From Cycloclasticus sp. (GTDB lineage: Bacteria; Pseudomonadota; Gammaproteobacteria; Methylococcales; Cycloclasticaceae): a stretch of 64,000 nucleotides of DNA. Of the stretch, positions 37,771 through 59,477 are shown piece after piece (position 1 is the first letter of the stretch; the number at the start of each line of letters is the position of its first letter). The position numbers and the translations under genes were made by a program. The stretch spans positions 186,001-250,000 of the forward strand of contig PADC01000006.1 in NCBI GenBank assembly GCA_002700385.1, in the 5' to 3' direction. The notes beneath the pieces were generated by a model that was given only the letters and a program-made list of their open reading frames with translations, was not told the DNA's origin and made no database searches.

Positions 37771-37998
37771 TACTTACGATTCCCTTATCTTTTAGTTAAC
37801 GATACCTTTATCAATCGTTTATCATCCCTTTTTTTCATTATAGCCAAATACCAAACGTTTTGATGCTCATCGATGCTTTTCCCTCTTTTTTCTACTCAAA
37901 AAATGCAAACCAACCTAGGATATTTCTTTGAAATTGCTACAGCTGATGGCCTTCTTCCCAAATTTAACACCATGACAACGATGAGATTTCCAGTTAAT

Positions 37999-38870
37999 TT
38001 ACGCTTTAGAAGAACAAATCATCAAGGTCATCAAAGAACATGAGGCAGGCGTAGAAGTCGACGACATCTGTCGCCGTATGGGTATATCCAACGATACGTT
38101 CTGCAACTGGCGCAGCAAATATGCAGGACTTGAAGTTAATGAAGCTAAACGGCTACGAGAATTATAAGCAGAAAACAACAAGCTTAAAAGCTGTTGGCGG
38201 ACAAGTTACTAGAAGTCTAGGCCATAAAGGATGTGCTTTCAAAAAAGTGGTAAGCCCTGCTGCACTTAAATAAGCCTTCATCATTTGAAGGTCCATTTTC
38301 AGTTGAGTGAACGAACCTCATGTGGTCTTGCAGGGGTCAGTCGCACCGCTTATCGATGCAAGCCCATTCCAGATAAAAATGGTGCATTAAGAGCACGCCT
38401 TAAAGTGCTGACAATACAGTATCCTCGTTATGGTTTGCCAATACTCCATGATTTACTCAAACCAGAAGGCTTGGTCGTCAATAAAAAACGTACCGAGTGT
38501 TTATATAACGAAGAAATCTTACAAGTACGTACCAAGAAACGGAAAAAACTACAACGCCCAGATTTGTGATGAGTTTGCCCTGTAAGGTCAATCAACGTTG
38601 ATCGATGGACTTTGTTTCAGACCAACTCAGTAACGGTCGCCGCTTTCGCAACTTGAATGTCGTTGATGATTACTCACGAGAAATGGTCGGATAACTGGCG
38701 AGTACATTTATATCTGGACATCAGGTTGCCCGATTCCTGTCTGAGTTAGCTGAGAAACCCGCTATGCCAAGCCAGATAGTCAATGAATGTCTCAAGCGGT
38801 ATCATTACAACCATGTCTGGCCTCACTGTTCACTCAATTATCTATCACCCGTGCCTTTGCTAAGTAGGCA
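37999..38870 (+). pseudogene. Degenerate IS3-family element (IS407-like group), orfA and orfB remnants
   Basis: The plus strand reads as an IS3-type OrfA (EEQIIKVIKEHEAGVEVDDI, then CRRMGISNDTFCNWRSKY) interrupted by a TAA, a one-base deletion and a TAG. It is followed by an OrfB-like part (RTSCGLAGVSRTAYRCKPIP, later SMDFVSDQLSNGRRFRNLNV and a WPHCSLNYLSP end). OrfB also has several stops, and the segment with its central catalytic residues is missing. Clear terminal inverted repeats were not found. The element cannot move on its own. Confidence 0.85.
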
Positions 38871-39369
38871 GCATAATATGAAATTTCTCATCGAGCCCGT
38901 GGTAAAAACTCTGGGGGAAGATCAATCTTAAATCGAAAAAACCTAATAGAATTGATATAGTAAAATCTACGAAAAGCAAGAACCAGAGCTAGACTATAGC
39001 ATAGAAATTATACACATCAATTAGATAAAATTAATATCCACCTTATCACAAGTAATCCTCATCCTTAAATCAAACAGCCTGTCTTTTTTCATAAAGAATT
39101 GAAAAAAATTCAGTTTTTGTTTGAAAGCAATCTATAGTTTTCAAACGCGAACAGATCTCACTTAAATAACAATTAAATATCCAGGTTAAAAATGAAAAAT
39201 CATCCTAACTTATTGATATAATTAAAATATCTGATGGGCTTATGAAAGTCTTATTTACAAAAGACCAAACAAGTACAGCTAAATAAAATGGCAAAAAGTC
39301 TTTTTGCTTGGTTTTACTCTTGCAGACATGAAATCCAGCCTAAGTAGAACTATACTTCGCTAAGTGAAT
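38871..39369. other. AT-rich gap after the IS remnant
   Basis: About 500 nt of very AT-rich sequence between the dead IS element and mgtE. No open frame, RNA gene or clear terminator stands out on either strand. It may contain the far end of the decayed element. Confidence 0.55.
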
Positions 39370-40734
39370 TCAAAGTAAAATCAAAGTGGCTGACCCCAAA
39401 AAGCAGAATAGCCCAATCATATCTGTGGCCGTTGTCAGTAAAACACCGCCAGCCAATGCAGGGTCGATTTTCATACGCTTAAGAGCAATGGGGAAGATAG
39501 CCCCAGATATCGCCCCTGTTAGTATCCCAATTAATAGCGATGCACCAAACACTATGCCAAGCTTCCAACTGCCAAACCAAAGGTAAACTACCAGAGAAAC
39601 GAGCAAAGCCCAGAAAACACCATTGATCAGTCCAATGCTGATTTCATGGTATAACAACTTAACAAAGTTTCCTCGCCCAATCTGATCCAATGCAATGCCC
39701 CGAGTCACTACAGTAAGTGTTTGACTCCCAGCTATTCCTGCCATGCTTGCGACTACAGGCATTAATATTGCGAGCGCAACCAGCTTTTCAATAGAGGCTT
39801 CGAACAATCCGATAACCCAGGCGGCCATGAAAGCGGTCAACAGATTAACGCCCAGCCATAAAGCTCGACGTAAAGAACTGGGTAACAAAGGCCCGAACAT
39901 TAACTCGCTTTTGTCCAGCCCTGCTCGGCCCAACAATTCCTTGTCTGCTTGATTGCGCATAACATCTATAATGTCATCTACGGTAATTCTGCCAATCAGA
40001 TGGTTATCTTCGTCAACAACCGGCGCAGATAAAAGATCCCGGTCAGCAAACACACGCGCGACATCGGCGTCTGATTGTAATGGAGTGAAAGATGAAGGCA
40101 CCTTTTGCATCACTGTATCAACCACAGCATTCTGGTCAGCAGAAACTAAAGTAATAAGAGGTAAAATGCCAACTAAATGATGACATCGATCGACGACCAT
40201 TAGGCTGTCTAGGTGTTCAGGTAAACCTTCTTCTCGCACTCGAAGCCTGCGATAATAGCGCTGCACTGATTTAAGTGTTACATCAGCTCGTACAGTAGCC
40301 GCATCAATATTCATCAGTCCGCCAGCACTATTATCAGGGTAATCTTTAACTGTTTCATAGCGTTGGCGCTGTTGTTCACCCATAACCATGGACATGGCAT
40401 TCAAGACCTCAGCAGGTAGATCGTCGTCTAGATCGGCCAGCTCATCTACTTGAATATGCCCCAGGCTTTCGACCAGTATACTTTCCTGCGTAGACCTTGC
40501 CAGTTCATGGCGCAATTTTTTATGTGTGCTTAGCAGCACCTCGCCCACCTGTTCGGTTGAAACGTATGGCCAGACCAACTGCCTGGTTTCTTTAGGCATA
40601 GCATCGATTAACCGAGCTATTTCTGCCGAACTCAACCCATCTAAAAATGGACGAATATCCGCTTGACGATTATCTTCGAGGGCTTTTGTTATGGGTTCAA
40701 CTAGCTGATATAGCCTGGTATCTTTAAGCATCAA
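39370..40734 (-). CDS. mgtE: Magnesium transporter MgtE
   Basis: A 454-residue MgtE with the usual order: the N-terminal helical Mg2+-sensing domain, two CBS domains (with VKDYPDNSAGGLMNIDAATV before them and LIGRITVDDIIDVMRNQADK at the end), and a five-helix membrane domain (MPVVASMAGIAGSQTLTVVT near its core, ALAGGVLLTTATDMIGLFCF at the end). It is a Mg2+ channel gated by cytosolic Mg2+. It lies 35 nt downstream of the TPR membrane protein in the ectoine operon direction, so it may be part of the salt-response transcript. Confidence 0.93.
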   Translation of the reverse strand: MMLKDTRLYQLVEPITKALEDNRQADIRPFLDGLSSAEIARLIDAMPKETRQLVWPYVSTEQVGEVLLSTHKKLRHELARSTQESILVESLGHIQVDELADLDDDLPAEVLNAMSMVMGEQQRQRYETVKDYPDNSAGGLMNIDAATVRADVTLKSVQRYYRRLRVREEGLPEHLDSLMVVDRCHHLVGILPLITLVSADQNAVVDTVMQKVPSSFTPLQSDADVARVFADRDLLSAPVVDEDNHLIGRITVDDIIDVMRNQADKELLGRAGLDKSELMFGPLLPSSLRRALWLGVNLLTAFMAAWVIGLFEASIEKLVALAILMPVVASMAGIAGSQTLTVVTRGIALDQIGRGNFVKLLYHEISIGLINGVFWALLVSLVVYLWFGSWKLGIVFGASLLIGILTGAISGAIFPIALKRMKIDPALAGGVLLTTATDMIGLFCFLGSATLILL

Positions 40735-40769
40735 TACGCTCCATTAGTCACCATTGAGATTTTGTTTCC

Positions 40770-41654
40770 TTAAGATGATGATCCGCTAATAAGTGCTAAA
40801 AATTCTGAATGATCTTTAATATTTTCAAACGCAATATCTGATTCCGCTTCAATAGCGTAAGACGCCTGCAGGTCAATGGCTTTTTTCAAAAAAGAAATAG
40901 CTTTATCTTCGACGCCCAATAAAGCTTGAGCACATGCCATTTGGTAAAGGGCAAAGCAATAATCAGGATCAACAGCCAAAGCTTGTTTGCACAGATTAAC
41001 AGCCCACTGAGGCTCCTTCAACTCAAGAACAACATCCGCCTTGTACGTTAATGCTTCAGAATCTTGAGGGCGAAGTTTCAGGATTTCGTCCAACACGCTA
41101 ATTTTATTGTTCAGCAACGACTCCTGTTGGAGTCTAAGCCAAAGGGATTGTATTTCTTGAGTTAATTCAATTTCCTCCCTGTTCGCCTCAATGTGTTGCG
41201 TTTTTTGATATAATTGTTCTTCAATGGCTGCAAGCCGTTGTTCATATTCTCTTACTAATTTTGTAATTTCTTCATCTGCCAATGAATGAACTCTTTCCTT
41301 TATATCCCGTATCGAACTCCACCCAAGCAAAACTAAAACGGAACTTGCTGCCGCAATCAAATAGAAAAAATAGGTCACCGTATCAGTTGCATAGGAAACA
41401 GCCCTATCAACCGACTTGTGCTCTCGGTCAACAATTTGCTGGGTGAGCTCTTGCCGGGTGTTAGCCTGTTCTTTGCGGAGCTGCTTAAGCTCATCCAACA
41501 CATATCGCTCTACAAAGGGCGAGTAGAGAGGTTTATCTAAATCCTCTATTCTTTCCTTGATCAGTCGTTGATCAGCATCTTGAGCCCATAAACCTGCTGG
41601 CAAAAACAGCAGAACTAAAGCAAGTTTGAAAACTATGCGGGGCATATTGCGCAC
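40770..41654 (-). CDS. Membrane-anchored TPR-like protein of the ectoine operon
   Basis: A 294-residue protein with a cleavable-looking signal sequence (LALVLLFLPAGLWAQDADQ), a region before a membrane helix at about 95-115 (YFFYLIAAASSVLVLLGW), a long charged coiled coil (about 120-175) and two or three TPR-like repeats (EALTYKADVVLELKEPQWAV, CFALYQMACAQALLGVEDKA). TPR repeats bind other proteins. The start overlaps the aspartokinase stop by about 20 nt, so it is coupled to the ectoine operon. I cannot name the family; an assembly or osmosensing role is only a guess from position. Confidence 0.65.
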   Translation of the reverse strand: MRNMPRIVFKLALVLLFLPAGLWAQDADQRLIKERIEDLDKPLYSPFVERYVLDELKQLRKEQANTRQELTQQIVDREHKSVDRAVSYATDTVTYFFYLIAAASSVLVLLGWSSIRDIKERVHSLADEEITKLVREYEQRLAAIEEQLYQKTQHIEANREEIELTQEIQSLWLRLQQESLLNNKISVLDEILKLRPQDSEALTYKADVVLELKEPQWAVNLCKQALAVDPDYCFALYQMACAQALLGVEDKAISFLKKAIDLQASYAIEAESDIAFENIKDHSEFLALISGSSS

Positions 41655-43061
41655 CCATGATCATGCACCTCAACTAACACTGAGTGCAAGCTTTTAACTG
41701 TTGCATCATAATCACTTTCTCTCACCACAAACTGCATATCTACTTGGCGCATTGATTGGTGTACGGCCAGTACGCTAATGTTGCTATCTGCAACTGCCTT
41801 GACTGCTTTCGCCAAAATTCCGGGAATTTGCATATCGCTGCCAACGGCAGAAACAATTGCAATTTTTTGCTGATTAAGTTCAGCGTCAGGGAAGCATTTC
41901 TCAACGGCCGATTGTATGCGTTTCACCGTCTTTAAGTTTGTCGACAGAAAATGCGTTAAGGTGTTGGCGTTAATATCCTTGGAAATAATATGGGCCTTGA
42001 AGCGCTTGATGATTGCCAGTACCTCTTGGTCATAGTCGTGAATGCTCCCTGCCATATCCTGGTCAAACAGTTCTAAGGCATAGATGCCCTTGCAACCAGC
42101 AATAATCTCCACACAGGGTGCGCTGCTGACGTAATCACCAGTAATCAACGTGCCTGCATGCTCTGGCTCAAAAGTATTTTTGACCCGAAGAGGGATATTA
42201 TTTTGCCTTAATCCTTTGGCTGCTTTGGGATGAATTGCTTCCATGCCAAGATTGGCCAGTTGGTCGGCTACATCGTAGTTGGTTCTGCCGATGGGGACGG
42301 CATTGTTTTCACCAACCAGTCTAGGATCTGCGCTACTCAGGTGAAACTCTTTATGGATAATGGCTTCTTTGGCTTTGGTGAGAACGGCTAATCGGCTGAA
42401 AGTCATTTCGCTGTAGCCACGGTCAAATGAGGTCATCAAGCCTGTATCACTATGAGCGTATCCGGTAACAATAGGTAGCTGCTTATCAAGATCAATATGC
42501 GCAAATGCGGTTTGAATACGCTCATCAAGAGGGAGGTGTTTGTCGGTCCGCCACCCTGTCAGATCAACAAAGCAAGCATTGATACCATCTCGCTGTAGAA
42601 GTTGTGCAGTATTCCAGGCACTATGAGCTTCACCAATACTGGCCAACATTTCCCGGACTGTCCCGAGATGAGATTTAAGTGCAAAGTGACCATGCTGACA
42701 AAGGCTCTGTAAATCCAGCAGGCATTGCCTCGCATTTGCCAATCTTTCATCCAAAAATTGATTGGCTCGCTGAAGTAGCTCGCCTTGGTCAAACAGGTTT
42801 TGGTTGATCCGGTGTAGTTCTGTACTCAGTTCGTCAAGTTTTTCTGACCAGCTTTCATCTTCCATGCTGCTGGCGAATAAACCATAGACGCCAGGTTGAC
42901 CACTTTTTTTGTGTTCTAATAATTTGTCAGTGACACCTCCGTAGGCAGAGACTACAAATACACGTTGATAAAGGTTGTTTTTTTTTGCTTTTAATGATGT
43001 TGTCTCGCACCGACAAATAATCGCTCATCGATGTCCCGCCAATCTTTTCAATCGTATGCAT
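41633..43061 (-). CDS. ask: Ectoine-specific aspartokinase (Ask_Ect), carrying a one-base frameshift
   Basis: Read across one frameshift this is a 475-residue aspartokinase of the Ask_Ect type: MHTIEKIGGTSMSDYLSVRD at the N-terminus, then VVSAYGGVTDKLLEHKKSGQ, the catalytic segment GYAHSDTGLMTSFDRGYSEM and two C-terminal ACT domains (KIAIVSAVGSDMQIPGILA). It feeds aspartyl phosphate to ectoine synthesis with relaxed feedback control. The frame breaks at nine T (42978-42986, plus strand); eight would restore it. The uninterrupted part is 41633-42865 or slightly longer. The extra base could be a true mutation, a phase-variable tract or an assembly error. A second aspartokinase, lysC, lies at 58.3 kb. 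Confidence 0.85.
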
Positions 43062-43083
43062 GAATCTTTTCTAAACCTTGAGG

Positions 43084-43437
43084 CTAATCATTACTACTGG
43101 CACAGGCCACACACTGGCGAGTCGTTAAAACTGCTTTTAAACGACCGGTTGGGATATCGCACCCACATCGAATACATACGCCTGCTTCATCAGTTTTGAG
43201 CCATGCAATATTTTTGGTGAGCTGTGAAAGTTCTATCTTGTGTTCTGAAAGAATTTTCTCACCCACAGGTGCATTAATCGTCAAATCGAGATTAGCTGCC
43301 GCATCACCTGCCTGGCTCTGCTTTTTTTCCGCGATTGGATGGCTGTCAGACAAGATTTTTTGCAATTCACTGATTCGCTGTTCTACCAGTGCTATCAATT
43401 GGAGTCTGTCTTTTTCATGCATGCCGGTCACGCTCAT
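43084..43437 (-). CDS. DksA/TraR-type zinc-finger protein in the ectoine operon
   Basis: A 117-residue protein with a helical N-terminal half (EKDRLQLIALVEQRISELQK) and a C4 zinc finger at the C-terminus (CIRCGCDIP ... RLKAVLTTRQCVACAS), the layout of short DksA/TraR relatives that bind the RNA polymerase secondary channel. It lacks the acidic coiled-coil tip residues of DksA in an obvious form. It overlaps the ectD stop by about 22 nt (or 7 nt with the internal Met at codon 6) and precedes ask by 22 nt, so it is an operon member. A regulatory role in the salt response is inference. Confidence 0.75.
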   Translation of the reverse strand: MSVTGMHEKDRLQLIALVEQRISELQKILSDSHPIAEKKQSQAGDAAANLDLTINAPVGEKILSEHKIELSQLTKNIAWLKTDEAGVCIRCGCDIPTGRLKAVLTTRQCVACASSND

Positions 43438-44374
43438 TTGTTCTCGGTATCAGATGAATATTGTCTCTGGAGCAGATATGTTCCGGTCGAGGTGCTTGAT
43501 TGCAAAATGGGGGGATTACTTTGTTACCTATCGCGTTGTAAACGAAAAATACATTTGATCGCGGAAATGGGGTGATATTGCCATTAGAGCCGTGCATGAC
43601 ATTACAATCGAAGACGATAACACTGCCTGGCTTACTCGTAGCTGACACAATGCCGCCCTGTGCTGCTAACGCTTCCAGACAATTGTCCGAAGGTACGCCG
43701 TACTCTTGCTTTTTGAGTGATTCGAGGTAGTGGTTGTCAGGTGTATGCCCTTCACACACGGCATACTGCTTATGTGAGCCTGGAATAAGCATTAAAGGGC
43801 CGTTGTGTTCATAATTTTCCGTCAGCGTTATCGACATGCTAAGAGCCCGCATGCGCGGCATGCCGTCTTCGACATGCCAGGTCTCAAAATCTGAATGCCA
43901 ATAAAACTCCTTACCCCGAAAACCTGGTTTGTAGTTTAGGCGAGACTGGTGGATATAAACGTCGTCGTTCAGTAGATATCGCGCAAGATCAGCCAAACGT
44001 CTATCCGCTGACAGTGATTTAAACAGAGGACTATTTTCATGCACACGAAACACCGAGCGGATGTCATTGCTGCTTGGTTCGGTGATGATTTCACCAGACT
44101 CTCTTACCTGGGGATCTGTTCTAAGACGCTCCAGCTCCTGTTGAAAGCGGCTTACTTCTTCAGCAGAAAATACGTTATCCAGCACGACAAATCCCTGTTT
44201 GTCGTAACTGTCGATCAAAGACTGTTCAATAGGGGGGCGTGTTTCTTTGGATGCGTAAACGGTGGGGTCCTGCCTGTCTACCAATTTGGCATGCTGCCCA
44301 TTTCTCGATGGGTATACATCGACTTCGTTTGCCAATACCTTATCTGGAGCTTGATTAGATACAACTTCTCTCAT
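43415..44374 (-). CDS. ectD: Ectoine 5-hydroxylase
   Basis: A 319-residue Fe(II)/2-oxoglutarate dioxygenase of the EctD family, which turns ectoine into 5-hydroxyectoine. The signature region FYWHSDFETWHVEDGMPRMR holds the His-x-Asp iron ligands, the distal His is in NVMHGSNGN, and the 2OG-binding Arg follows. It lies 11 nt after ectC. Hydroxyectoine production suggests that the organism meets heat or drying stress as well as salt. Confidence 0.95.
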   Translation of the reverse strand: MREVVSNQAPDKVLANEVDVYPSRNGQHAKLVDRQDPTVYASKETRPPIEQSLIDSYDKQGFVVLDNVFSAEEVSRFQQELERLRTDPQVRESGEIITEPSSNDIRSVFRVHENSPLFKSLSADRRLADLARYLLNDDVYIHQSRLNYKPGFRGKEFYWHSDFETWHVEDGMPRMRALSMSITLTENYEHNGPLMLIPGSHKQYAVCEGHTPDNHYLESLKKQEYGVPSDNCLEALAAQGGIVSATSKPGSVIVFDCNVMHGSNGNITPFPRSNVFFVYNAIGNKVIPPFCNQAPRPEHICSRDNIHLIPRTNERDRHA

Positions 44375-44385
44375 GGTGTCATTCC

Positions 44386-44790
44386 TTAATCTTCAATGGT
44401 TGCTGCGTCCAGCTCGTAGGCACCTTCTGCGTTATGGACTTCTTTGCCATTGAGCGGTGGGTTAAAAACACAGGCCATGACCATTTCTTCAAATGCGCGC
44501 AATACATGTTTGTCGTGTTTGTCCAGTATGTAAATGGTGCCAGGCTCAATGGGGTACTTCTTCCCGTCTGCGAGGGTTTCCACTTCACCTTTCCCGGATA
44601 CACAGTACACAGACTCCAGGTGATTTTGATAGTGCATCTGGAAATCAGCATCTTTGTAAATGGTGGTGATATGGAAGGAAAAACCCATTTGATCTTCCTT
44701 CAGTAAAAGGCGCGTGCTTTCCCAGTTTCCATCGGGAGATACCACTCTCCGATTGGATTGGTTAGCATCTGACAATGTTCTAACAATCAT
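44386..44790 (-). CDS. ectC: Ectoine synthase
   Basis: A 134-residue cupin enzyme that closes N-gamma-acetyl-diaminobutyrate to ectoine, the last step of the pathway. It has [20 protein letters not shown] at the N-terminus, [20 protein letters not shown] and the [20 protein letters not shown] cupin motifs of EctC. It is normal in length and intact. It is separated from ectB by a 264-nt gap that holds a broken small frame. Confidence 0.96.
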
Positions 44791-44819
44791 AAAGTTACCT
44801 TACTGTTTAAGTTATTAGT

Positions 44820-45037
44820 TCAATAAGCATTGGTTTGCTCGGCTGTGAGAGTAGCTATATCTTCACCCGGGATAGTAAGCTCATCACCTTGTGCGACTCG
44901 TACCCGATTGGCCGAAGACATGATACGCAGTTAGCCTTCCCTGATACTCAGCAATAGCGATAGCTGGTCGCCGATTTTTCTATGGGTAATAATTTTTGTT
45001 CACCTGCCCTTATTCGAATTTGCTGCTTATCTTCCAT
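44820..45037 (-). pseudogene. Broken small frame between ectB and ectC
   Basis: From the ATG at 45037 the minus strand reads MEDKQQIRIRAGEQKLLPI, then needs a frameshift near 44980 to continue as HRKIGDQLSLLLSIREG. After an in-frame TAA (44930 region) the same frame runs LRIMSSANRVRVAQGDELTI ... AEQTNAY to a TGA at 44822. Together these give about 70 residues of protein-like sequence. I do not recognise the family. It is likely a small operon gene that has decayed, leaving an unusually long ectB-ectC spacer. Confidence 0.45.
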
Positions 45038-45054
45038 GTGATGAAATGTAGTGT

Positions 45055-46350
45055 TTAGCCTGCTTCGAAATACACTTTTTCTTCGGGAATTTCGTCGACA
45101 TTGGCACAGACTTCTCTGATGGCGGATTCGACAATATCAATGCCTTTTTTCAGATTGTCGTCACTAATAATCAATGGGCATAAAAACTTCACGACATGAT
45201 CATCGGCACCACTGGTTTCGATAATCAGCCCTTTTTTAAAGGCATGACTGGTGATCTTGCTGGCGATCTCGCCATTAACACAATTAATCCCCTGAAACAT
45301 ACCTCGCCCTTTGGTAGTAAAGTTGCCTTCACCATACTGGCTGACGATTTTGTTTAAGCGTTCAGATATGTAACGCCCTTTGCGTTTGATTTCTTCTGAG
45401 AAGTTTTTGTCGGACCAGTAATTCTCAATGGCTGCTTTGGCCGTCACAAACGCTAGATTGTTACCTCGAAAAGTGCCGTTGTGTTCTCCGGGCTTCCATT
45501 GATCCAGTTCTGGCTTCATCAGTACCACCGCAAAAGGCAAACCGTAACCTCCTAAAGATTTAGAGAGCGTAATGATGTCTGGTTCAATGCCTGCTTCTTC
45601 AAAGCTGAAATAGTCACCCGTTCTACCACACCCTGCCTGGATGTCATCAACAATGAGCAATAGACCGTGTTTCTTACAGACCGCCTGGAGATTTTGCAGC
45701 CACTCTACACTGGCGACATTGATGCCACCTTCACCTTGAACGGTTTCGACAATCACAGCAGCAGGAGAGTTAATGCCGCTACTGGAATCGGAGAGCACCT
45801 TGTCCAGGTATTCCGTGGTGTCGATGTTCTCCCCCAAATAGCCGTCATAGGGCATACGGTGTGTCCCGCTTAAACTGACGCCTGCCGCATCACGGTGATG
45901 AGAGTTTCCTGTTGCAGCCAGCGAACCCAGGCTGACGCCATGGAAGCCGTTGGTGAAGGTGACGATGTTTTGCTGGCCGGTTACGTTACGTGCAATTTTC
46001 ATCGCTGCTTCGACGGCATTGGTGCCGGTCGGTCCGGTGAACTGCACCACATAGTCCATGTTACGCGGCTTTAATATCTTGTCATTAAAGGCCTGCAAAA
46101 ACTCACCTTTAGCCTTGGTATGCATGTCCAAACCGTGAGTAACGCCGTCTTTTTGGATATAGTTGAGCAGGTTATCTTTAAAAAGCGGGTTGTTATGCCC
46201 GTAGTTGAGGGTTCCGGCCCCGGCCAGAAAATCCAGATACTGATTGCCATCCTCGTCCCACATATGTTCACCCTGTGCGCGACTGAATACGCGGGGAAAA
46301 GATCGAGCATAGCTTTGAACTTCGGATTCGATTTCATCAAAAATTTTCAT
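45055..46350 (-). CDS. ectB: L-2,4-diaminobutyrate:2-oxoglutarate aminotransferase
   Basis: A 431-residue class III PLP-dependent aminotransferase that makes diaminobutyrate from aspartate semialdehyde, the first committed step to ectoine. It carries QFTGPTGTNAVEAAMKIARN, LLIVDDIQAGCGRTGDYFSF and the PLP lysine in ITLSKSLGGYG, and NHTGTFRGNN-type (here EHNGTFRGNN) substrate residues. It lies 15 nt downstream of ectA. Confidence 0.96.
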   Translation of the reverse strand: MKIFDEIESEVQSYARSFPRVFSRAQGEHMWDEDGNQYLDFLAGAGTLNYGHNNPLFKDNLLNYIQKDGVTHGLDMHTKAKGEFLQAFNDKILKPRNMDYVVQFTGPTGTNAVEAAMKIARNVTGQQNIVTFTNGFHGVSLGSLAATGNSHHRDAAGVSLSGTHRMPYDGYLGENIDTTEYLDKVLSDSSSGINSPAAVIVETVQGEGGINVASVEWLQNLQAVCKKHGLLLIVDDIQAGCGRTGDYFSFEEAGIEPDIITLSKSLGGYGLPFAVVLMKPELDQWKPGEHNGTFRGNNLAFVTAKAAIENYWSDKNFSEEIKRKGRYISERLNKIVSQYGEGNFTTKGRGMFQGINCVNGEIASKITSHAFKKGLIIETSGADDHVVKFLCPLIISDDNLKKGIDIVESAIREVCANVDEIPEEKVYFEAG

Positions 46351-46365: not shown

Positions 46366-46869
46366 TTAGTTCTGTGACTGAAAAGGGCCGATACGCACAA
46401 GTACTTCGGAGTCATGTTGTCCGGCAAAATGCTTTTCTTTATCCATCCATGCTGAGGCCTGAAAGTCTGCTTCCTGTGTCTTGGCGAAGCGTTTGAACAA
46501 AGCCCAGGATGCTTGGTTGTCTTCTGTGATTGTGGTTTCCAAATAGCGAATTTGATTGCATGTATGACGAGTCAAAATTTGATCCAGCATGCGCGATGCC
46601 AAGCCGCACCCCCTAACCTTTTCTAAAACTGCAACTTGCCAAATAAACAAGGTGTCAGGCTTTTCAGGAATGATATAGCCAGAGACAAACCCAACCAAAC
46701 CACCATCTTGCTCTGCAGCAACCGACGTGCGTGCAAAATGACTGCATTGCAGCAAGTTGCAATAGCTTGAATTAACATCCAGCGGCGGGCAACTCGCAAC
46801 CAACTCAACCAAATCCATGCCGTCATCAAGCCTTGGTTGCCTTAATGAGATACTTTTTACTTTAAACAA
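46366..46869 (-). CDS. ectA: Diaminobutyrate acetyltransferase
   Basis: A GNAT-family acetyltransferase that acetylates diaminobutyrate, the second step to ectoine. The conserved body runs from SLRQPRLDDGMDLVELVASC, through CPPLDVNSSYCNLLQCSHFA and DTLFIWQVAVLEKVRGCGLA, to the end. The first recognisable residue is near codon 34 of a frame open to an ATG at 46962. I propose a TTG start at 46869 (167 residues), because the 31 earlier codons are hydrophobic and unlike EctA; the start is uncertain. It begins the ectABC operon and is divergent from the MarR-type regulator. Confidence 0.88.
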   Translation of the reverse strand: MFKVKSISLRQPRLDDGMDLVELVASCPPLDVNSSYCNLLQCSHFARTSVAAEQDGGLVGFVSGYIIPEKPDTLFIWQVAVLEKVRGCGLASRMLDQILTRHTCNQIRYLETTITEDNQASWALFKRFAKTQEADFQASAWMDKEKHFAGQHDSEVLVRIGPFQSQN

Positions 46870-46986
46870 AACAACACTTAAATGATAAAAATTAGTTTGT
46901 AATCTACATAAAAAATCTTCAATTGATAAAGCAAAGCAACCCAAAAATAAAGGGAAGAGCAACGCTACCCAAGAAAATTAATTTCA

Positions 46987-47012
46987 ATACTAAGTATTGT
47001 ACACTAAGTATT
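46987..47012. promoter_or_regulatory. Repeat motif in the ectA-ectR control region (candidate EctR operator)
   Basis: ACTAAGTATT occurs twice, at 46989-46998 and 47003-47012, with a 14-bp period. The first copy sits in the inverted repeat AATAC-TAA-GTATT (46987-46999 region). MarR proteins bind short AT-rich inverted repeats, and EctR-type repressors act on the ect promoter. A third partial copy, TAGTATT, lies at about 47178 nearer the regulator gene. Confidence 0.45.
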
Positions 47013-47235
47013 ATTTGAACTCAATCCATAAAAAAGCAACACACAAAAAATTCTTATCGATAACCATTAGAGAGCATTTCAGCAACTTATAGCTCTTAAT
47101 CAAAAAAGCATCCCAACAGTTCATCGCCACCTTTCTGGACTTAACTGAACAAACAATAATACCAAGTAAATTATTTAGTATTCTAAACACTTTGAGTTAT
47201 AATGAATTTATTGCTTATATAATTTTGAGGTGCTG

Positions 47236-47724
47236 GTGAATTCTATTGAAGAGGTTTTAGTGGCTCTACGCCGTGTCATTAGAGCAACTGACTTACACTC
47301 CAAGCATTTAGCAAAAACCACGGGGTTAACCGCTCCACAAATTTTGCTATTACAAACTATACGAAACCAAGGTGAAATAACTATTGGTGAACTAGCAAAC
47401 CAAATGAGTCTAAGCCAAGCAACGGTTACCAGCATCTTAGACCGGTTAGAAAAAAGAAAACTGGTCTATAGAGAGCGATCCAAAAAGGACAAGCGCAAGG
47501 TACACGCCTATCTCACCAACCTAGCAGCCGAAACCCTAAAAGACGCACCCATCCCACTTCAAGATCATTTTACTACGCAATTTAGTGACCTCCTGGAATG
47601 GGAGCAAACCATGATAATATCTTCACTACAGCGAGTTGCACAAATGATGGACGCTCAACATATCGACGCATCTCCTGTCCTTGATATTGGATTATTAGAC
47701 CGGCAAAGCACACAAATTGAATAA
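47236..47724 (+). CDS. ectR: MarR-family transcriptional regulator of ectoine genes (EctR-like)
   Basis: A 162-residue winged-helix regulator. The dimer helix is followed by the DNA-binding domain TIGELANQMSLSQATVTSIL with DRLEKRKLVYRERSKKDKRK as helix and wing. The GTG start at 47236 follows GAGG by 5 nt. It is divergent from ectA across a control region with repeats, the arrangement known for EctR, which represses ect genes at low salt. The assignment to ectoine control rests mainly on this position. Confidence 0.85.
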   Translation: MNSIEEVLVALRRVIRATDLHSKHLAKTTGLTAPQILLLQTIRNQGEITIGELANQMSLSQATVTSILDRLEKRKLVYRERSKKDKRKVHAYLTNLAAETLKDAPIPLQDHFTTQFSDLLEWEQTMIISSLQRVAQMMDAQHIDASPVLDIGLLDRQSTQIE

Positions 47725-58256: not shown

Positions 58257-59477
58257 TTATGCATCAGATAAGCCAAAAGATTCGTGTAGTGTACGAACGG
58301 CCAATTCTAAATATTTTTCGTCAACCACGACAGAAATTTTAATTTCTGACGTTGAAATCATCCGAATATTAATGCCTTCATCGGCCAAAGCGCTAAACAT
58401 TTGGCTGGCGATTCCAGCGTGTGAGCGCATGCCGACACCCACAATAGACACTTTGACTATTTTATTGTCGCCATCAACTTTTGATGCGCCCAATTCAATG
58501 CAAATATCCTGCAAAATTTGCATCGTTTTCTCATAATCATTTCTATGAACCGTGAAGGTAAAATCGGTCGTTTGATCTTCCGCAATGTTTTGAACAATCA
58601 TGTCAATTTCAATATTTGCGTCAGAAATTGGTTTCAAAATAGCCGAGGCAACGCCTGGCATATCAGGTACACCTGATAAGGTAACTTTTGCTTCATCTCG
58701 GTTAAACGCAATACCTGAAATTAATGCTTTTTCCATTTCTTCATCCTCGTATGTTATTAACGTGCCTTCCCCATCCTCAAATGTTGATAAAACACGCAAT
58801 GGAACATTGTATTTTCCTGCAAACTCGACTGAACGAATTTGTAAAATTTTTGAACCCAAGCTGGCCATTTCCAACATTTCTTCAAAGGTGATTTTATTCA
58901 GCCTTTTAGCTTTTGGCTCTACTCTTGGGTCTGTTGTATAAACACCGTCAACATCGGTGTAGATTCTGCATTCGTCTGCTTTTAAAGCAGCGGCTAAAGC
59001 AACTGCTGTGGTATCTGAGCCTCCACGGCCCAAGGTTGTTATCGCACCATCGGACGTGACGCCTTGAAAACCCGCTACAACGACTATTTTATTCGCCTCT
59101 AAATCAGCTCGTATTTTATCAGTCTGTATTTCTTCAATTCGCGCTTTACCATGTGAATCATCCGTCAGGATTTTTACTTGCCACCCCGTGTAAGACACCG
59201 CTTGCATACCCAGCTCTTCAAGTGCCATGCAAAGTAACGCTATGGTAACTTGCTCTCCAGTCGATAATAGAACATCCATTTGCTTCTTTGACGGGAGCTG
59301 TTGCATTTGATTAGCTAACTCGGTCATGCGGTTTGTTTCTCCGCTCATGGCCGAAACCACTACGACCAAATCATGTCCACTGGCCTGCCTTTCTTTGACT
59401 AATTTTTTAGCTACATTCTGGATTTTTTCAGCCGTACCTACGGATGTACCGCCGTATTTGTGTACATGTAAACTCAT
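58257..59477 (-). CDS. lysC: Aspartate kinase
   Basis: A 406-residue aspartokinase of the lysine/threonine-sensitive alpha-beta type: HVHKYGGTSVGTAEKIQNVA at the N-terminus, TLGRGGSDTTAVALAAALKA and DVDGVYTTDPR in the kinase domain, and two ACT domains at the C-terminus. It makes aspartyl phosphate for lysine, threonine, methionine and diaminopimelate. It is separate from the ectoine-specific aspartokinase at 41.6 kb. Confidence 0.97.
   Translation of the reverse strand: MSLHVHKYGGTSVGTAEKIQNVAKKLVKERQASGHDLVVVVSAMSGETNRMTELANQMQQLPSKKQMDVLLSTGEQVTIALLCMALEELGMQAVSYTGWQVKILTDDSHGKARIEEIQTDKIRADLEANKIVVVAGFQGVTSDGAITTLGRGGSDTTAVALAAALKADECRIYTDVDGVYTTDPRVEPKAKRLNKITFEEMLEMASLGSKILQIRSVEFAGKYNVPLRVLSTFEDGEGTLITYEDEEMEKALISGIAFNRDEAKVTLSGVPDMPGVASAILKPISDANIEIDMIVQNIAEDQTTDFTFTVHRNDYEKTMQILQDICIELGASKVDGDNKIVKVSIVGVGMRSHAGIASQMFSALADEGINIRMISTSEIKISVVVDEKYLELAVRTLHESFGLSDA

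Follow-up and report, generated by a model that had tools for sequence, protein, structure and literature searches.

The window analysed here, a 64,000-nucleotide (nt) stretch of contig PADC01000006.1 from a Cycloclasticus sp. assembly (GCA_002700385.1, positions 186,001 to 250,000), harbors an ectoine locus in which ectR is transcribed divergently from ectA. Adjacent ectA, ectB, and ectC together with ectD identify it as an ectoine operon. It continues with a gene for a DksA/TraR-like zinc-finger protein (zf), ask_ect, a gene for a membrane protein with tetratricopeptide repeats (TPR), and mgtE (Table 1). The TPR gene is a recurrent component of ask-type ectoine operons that has apparently not been described before. 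Its product is best read as a membrane protein dedicated to ectoine synthesis, acting there as sensor or scaffold, a role that we infer. The five genes from ectD to mgtE lie on the minus strand at the places and with the family assignments given in the initial annotation, which also correctly placed the start of mgtE 35 nt past the end of the TPR gene. Its description of the genes from ectD to TPR as overlapping or nearly touching holds with the exception of ask_ect, whose open frame starts 218 nt past zf; because ask_ect is not intact as assembled, it touches zf only if a frameshift is bridged.

The TPR gene in ectoine operons

The TPR gene was traced through three genome samples. In the order sample (301 genomes, TPR search at an E value of 1e-20), the ectoine synthase gene ectC scores over its cut-off in 27 genomes, a weak 28th match (G275) having been dropped. 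The TPR gene is present in 16 of the 301, and 15 of these carry ectC; in the remaining one (G247), a genome that is 79% complete, it adjoins ectD on a short contig. The class sample comprises 369 genomes (TPR at E 1e-15, weakest listed match 4.7e-68) and contains the TPR gene in 13, ectC in 53 (57 at E 0.001, of which four weak matches were dropped), and both in 11. A search for ask_ect in 79 genomes was positive in 25. Among the 53 class genomes with ectC, with the window counted as positive for ask_ect, the TPR gene occurs in 9/14 with ask_ect vs 2/39 without. Fisher tests that ignore kinship yield p values of 3e-17 (order, TPR with ectC), 1e-8 (class, TPR with ectC), and 2e-5 (class, TPR with ask_ect), which overstate the case because the genomes are not independent. 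The phylum sample (398 genomes, E 1e-10) contains 19 genomes with the TPR gene, 17 of them new; ectC is found in 14 of these 17, and eight belong to one genus. Overall, ectC accompanies the TPR gene in 38/44 genomes, and the association of the TPR gene with ectoine clusters is well supported.

The ect stretches were read for all 27 ectC genomes of the order sample (the window, three congeners, and 23 others). Each of their 13 ask_ect clusters includes the TPR gene, which directly follows ask in nine (the window, G004, G013 on a second contig, G014, G156, G174, G190, G222, and G229) and takes part in the order ask, ectD, TPR in the other four (G091, G124, G164, and G166). G164 carries an additional remnant of the TPR start behind ask. 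In the class sample, 13 genomes besides the window have ask_ect; the TPR gene adjoins ask in seven (G437, G456, G459, G509, G566, G634, and G654) and lies elsewhere, apart from ask, in G491. The phylum sample adds ask-TPR adjacency in G834 and G950. The linkage also takes other forms, as the gene is divergent from ectA in G972, lies ∼3.6 kilobases (kb) from ectR in G841, and in G787 and G822 is divergent from the sole EctR homolog found at a threshold of E 1e-25, ectC and ask_ect being located at other places. Of the 21 TPR genomes searched, 19 contain EctR-like genes; only the positions in G787 and G822 are used as support, since the MarR background is uncontrolled. Two genomes retain the TPR gene without a complete ask_ect: in G052 it stands behind a 54-codon remainder of ask, and in G024 it accompanies ectABC in a genome in which no ask_ect was found. 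Looking for the same gene order in other ectoine producers had been proposed in the initial annotation, and the TPR gene and, less often, zf are indeed conserved in ect clusters beyond this genus and family. The complete order ectD-zf-ask-TPR is shared by two congeners, is present in a second family of the order, and also occurs in a single genome from another order or family, a recurrence that makes the arrangement more than chance.

The junction between ask and the TPR gene was compared in 17 of the 18 genomes in which the two are neighbors, with G566 left out. In 16 of the 17, the TPR start codon ATG lies within the ask codons ATA TGY at a constant distance from the ask end, giving an overlap of 13 or 16 nt, and in G509 the overlap is ATGA. 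The start overlap is maintained across different families and points to translational coupling. In the shrunken ask_ect frame of G052 (L076, ∼1211-1390) the junction is intact, as if the frame were a coupling leader. Neither this fixed overlap nor the frameshift in ask_ect had been noticed in the initial annotation.

The TPR assignment of the protein rests on matches to PF13431 (28 bits over a cut-off of 24.4) and NF047558 (58.6 over 32) and on a Foldseek match to a designed TPR protein. It contains two hydrophobic stretches, a signal-peptide-like one at residues 4-22 and one at residues 90-108 that is followed by basic residues; this predicts an external position for the intervening part and an internal one for the coiled coil and TPR domain. 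At least 40 of the 44 homologs have in common E46, Y48, L50, D51, E52, K54, L56, and R57 of the outer part as well as F94, Y95, G108, and W109 at the membrane. The predicted structure (pTM 0.45) is confident in the helical C-terminal TPR part and poor before it, and the 60 solved-structure matches shown all cover the C terminus only, none reaching the N-terminal 126 profile positions. LapB and MamA share the TPR domain with this protein, and LapB has a membrane-anchored cytoplasmic TPR layout; the protein scores far below the curated cut-offs of both (LapB 15.6 vs 474 bits, MamA 33 vs 200). In the TPR tree, a deep fork with weak support (78/71) separates 23 of the 25 operon-linked rows from the other two (G634 and G950), and long branches make the deep forks unsure. 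The row of the window pairs with G437, a member of another family (99/99), and not with its congeners, which suggests a transfer of the cluster or part of it.

Methylomicrobium alcaliphilum 20Z, which has ectABC-ask_ect-ectD under EctR, shares with the window the divergent ectR, ectABC, ask_ect, and ectD (PMC5924519, PMC8759281), and its order with the TPR gene added is the layout of G091, G124, G164, and G166. Unlike in 20Z, ectD precedes ask in the window, and neither a TPR gene nor zf is named for 20Z in the text examined (PMC5924519, PMC8759281). Surveys of ect genes treat ectD, ask_ect, and ectR as associated genes (PMC5924519, PMC3979721; for phototrophs PMC7824335), and the word “TPR” is absent from the text of PMC5924519 and of PMC7824335. 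The titles and abstract beginnings of the literature searched, subscription papers excluded, name no ect-linked TPR or DksA gene.

Accompanying genes of the locus

Six genomes carry zf (the window, G004, G013, G156, G190, and G654), every time between ectD and ask. A scan of genome contigs with zf returned two congeners only, and a profile search of 40 further ect or TPR genomes at E 1e-12 matched only G156, G190, and G654. Ten of the loci read have ectD directly before ask_ect, of which six include zf and four do not (G014, G456, G461, and G549). The ectD-ask gap of G014 contains a possible zf remnant, LCPSCTET, as a weak hint. All six zf rows have an invariant set of four cysteines in a C4 site (CxxC-x17-CxxC), and the predicted model combines a coiled coil with a globular DksA fold, with a confidence below 50 for the tip residues 35-50. 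The model resembles Escherichia coli DksA bound to RNA polymerase (7khi_M, TM-score 0.84 by query length) and Pseudomonas aeruginosa DksA2 (4ijj_A, 0.81), and the C4 site is alike in both. Unlike these, zf comprises 117 amino acids (aa) at 15-17% identity and has a short end, with five residues after the last cysteine, and the DxxDxA motif is absent from the tip region of all six rows. It also stays below the NCBIfam DksA equivalog cut-offs (36.9 vs 105 and 26.2 vs 115.5 bits). The DxxDxA tip motif is described as important in DksA/TraR proteins, and some TraR homologs of intermediate length without features of this kind do not function as DksA does (PMC9239242). By description, and not by sequence comparison, zf is like two of the intermediate-length proteins, RSP0166 and SMc00049, in its similar length, its C4 finger, and the lack of DxxDxA (PMC9239242). 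It is best regarded as an occasional extra of ect operons that encodes a small DksA-fold protein, and an action on RNA polymerase is doubtful.

The product of the ect-linked mgtE has the MgtE N, CBS, and transporter domains and scores over the equivalog cut-off. It is one of two copies in the genome and shows 47-49% identity to the second copy and to one copy in each of eight congeners; the closest other mgtE paralogs reach 37% (G014) and 28% (G004 and G013). G004 has one mgtE on its ect contig, ∼44 kb away. None of the other ect loci read has a same-strand mgtE behind ect. Elsewhere, mgtE-like genes near ect were seen only in G635, where two (L226, 7625-10252) lie behind ectABC on the opposite strand with 25% identity. 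As its linkage to ect is confined to this genome among the loci read, mgtE was rejected as a member of the system and is probably a chance neighbor of the operon; it drops out of the conserved order, and the Mg2+ link drawn in the initial annotation finds no support. Beside mgtE, at ∼37980-38940, lies a broken transposase-like stretch with a 94-aa frame whose weak HTH_21 match stays below the cut-off.

As assembled, ask_ect does not form an intact frame. It starts (MHTIEKIGGTSMSDY..; MHTIEKIGGTSMSDYLSVRDNII) at ∼43061, 22 nt past zf, in a frame that closes at ∼42927, and the remaining kinase is open in a different frame down to 41633 (open frame 41633-42865). The two frames meet at nine consecutive A (T9 at 42978-42986 of the plus strand), located in a loop of variable length among relatives. 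All 18 other ask_ect genes with their start in view are open across this place, one of them (G013) being cut by a contig end further on; the G566 match is reported with one TAG. The frameshift is possibly a sequencing or assembly error, early decay, or slippage. Slippage at A/T runs can restore the frame, at rates of <1% for runs of 6-7 (PMC6260861). An assembly that is error-ridden in general was rejected as an explanation: the window has five open frames that together contain six runs of 8 A or T, and homopolymer errors are accordingly not widespread, although a single error at the A9 run is possible. The 3′ part of ask compared with G004 gives a dN of 0.16 with dS saturated, which is uninformative. 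A second aspartokinase gene, identified by eye from its start, lies at 58257-59477. The ask_ect gene may be read via an A9 slippage site, or it may be undergoing decay with the TPR gene retained.

The putative promoter of the operon is a promoter-like site before ectA (TTGAGT-17-TACAAT, 47024-46996, minus strand) that is overlapped by the inverted repeat and is a consensus match only; such sites are not enriched in the region (13 vs 16.5 in shuffles). In M. alcaliphilum, EctR reportedly binds over a -10 region (PMC5924519). The gap between ectB and ectC (44791-45054) measures 264 nt vs ∼150 nt in three congeners and contains short broken frames. A small gene in this gap was rejected, as the fragments are without a Pfam match (E up to 1) and no comparable frame is evident in the gaps of 15 relatives.

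Table 1 Genes and sites of the ectoine locus, in window positions.
Feature	Position	Strand	Evidence and remarks
mgtE, extra copy	39370..40734	-	TIGR00400 280 bits, cut-off 232.75
TPR membrane protein	40770..41645 (ATG) or to 41654 (GTG)	-	ATG 41645 overlaps ask end by 13 nt
ask_ect, frameshifted as assembled	41633..43061	-	3′ frame 410 aa, 77-78% identical to congeners
zf, DksA/TraR-like C4 zinc-finger gene	43084..43437	-	PF01258 30 bits, cut-off 24.9; relatives-matching start ∼43422
ectD	43415..44374	-	PF05721 134.6 bits; 64-66% identity to ectD in congeners' ect loci
ectC	44386..44790	-	PF06339 198.6 bits
ectB	45055..46350	-	PF00202 280 bits; congeners 85-87% identical
ectA, start uncertain	46366..46962	-	TIGR02406 212 bits, cut-off 120.6
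Inverted repeat over promoter-like site before ectA; possible EctR operator (candidate)	46986..47012	.	
ectR, MarR-type regulator	47230..47724	+	MarR PF01047 72.5 bits; 79-87% identity in several other genomes' ect loci

Possible roles of the TPR protein

The reading that we tentatively favor, at somewhat less than an even chance, is an ectR/ectABCD-ask_ect operon with a recurrent TPR gene and an occasional zf, in which the TPR protein senses the envelope state and signals to the ectoine system. The protein would sit in the inner membrane, exposing a short helical segment on the outer side and its coiled coil and TPR domain on the inner side, and would respond to turgor or the state of the membrane. 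The signal may then be relayed through protein contacts of the TPR part, either to the control of ect by EctR or an EctR-independent route or to enzymes such as Ask_Ect and EctB, and translational coupling via the ask end would link the amount of TPR protein to that of the ect enzymes. In M. alcaliphilum, the ect genes are salt-inducible without EctR, and a further, uncharacterised control has been proposed (PMC8759281). A more specific form, which we consider unlikely, makes the TPR protein the missing osmosensor, a single-span protein that would register turgor through its outer and membrane helices, set ectoine synthesis through the TPR part, be made in a fixed ratio to Ask_Ect owing to the gene overlap, and be able to act without Ask_Ect. 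Several observations weigh against a sensor of ectoine synthesis. Sensing is a step that we infer and do not read from the sequence. The TPR gene is absent from 12 of the 27 order genomes with ectC (in seven of the 12, those searched genome-wide, ask_ect was not found either) and from five of the 13 class genomes with ask_ect (G404, G444, G448, G461, and G549). The family is not tied to ectoine, since ectC was not found in six of the 44 genomes with the TPR gene (G409, G438, G720, G857, G899, and the incomplete G247). Of the 44 genes, 15 lie away from ect within the stretch inspected, according to manual labels and with two judged on short loci. Moreover, the TPR profile was built from ect-linked rows and favors linked homologs.

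TPR domains bind proteins, and the protein could be a membrane scaffold to which Ask_Ect and the Ect enzymes are tethered, promoting their assembly or stability and channeling precursor to ectoine without sensing anything. The fixed overlap with ask and the way in which the TPR gene tracks ask_ect among ectC genomes speak for such a tether, but the gene is retained where ask_ect is lost (G024 and G052) and in G787 and G822 adjoins EctR at a site separate from ask, and on balance we consider the scaffold improbable. A little less probable still is a general envelope protein with a role outside ectoine, carried along by shared ancestry and block transfer. The TPR genomes without ectC, the unlinked genes, and the position of most linked rows on one side of the tree, although that fork is weak, would fit this view; it is opposed by an association that is present in both the order and the class sample, by a linkage that takes several shapes (behind ask, behind ectD, divergent from ectA, or next to ectR), and by a start overlap kept across families. 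The reading of the initial annotation, in which zf works through RNA polymerase and mgtE through the Mg2+ balance, both tied to osmolyte synthesis, is very improbable. The DksA fold, the C4 site, and the constant place of zf in six genomes agree with it, as do the short distance of mgtE from the TPR gene and the lack of a minus-strand terminator-like site between them. The fold is DksA-like, but the control of RNA polymerase is weakened by the absent DxxDxA motif and the short end of zf. None of the other loci read repeats the position of mgtE behind ect, the mgtE-like genes of G635 being 25% identical and on the opposite strand.

For the sensor reading of the TPR protein, the significance lies in the osmotic-stress sensing that switches on ectoine synthesis, which is unsettled and for which a conserved, operon-encoded TPR membrane protein would be a concrete candidate. 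The protein could also matter for the industrial production of ectoine.

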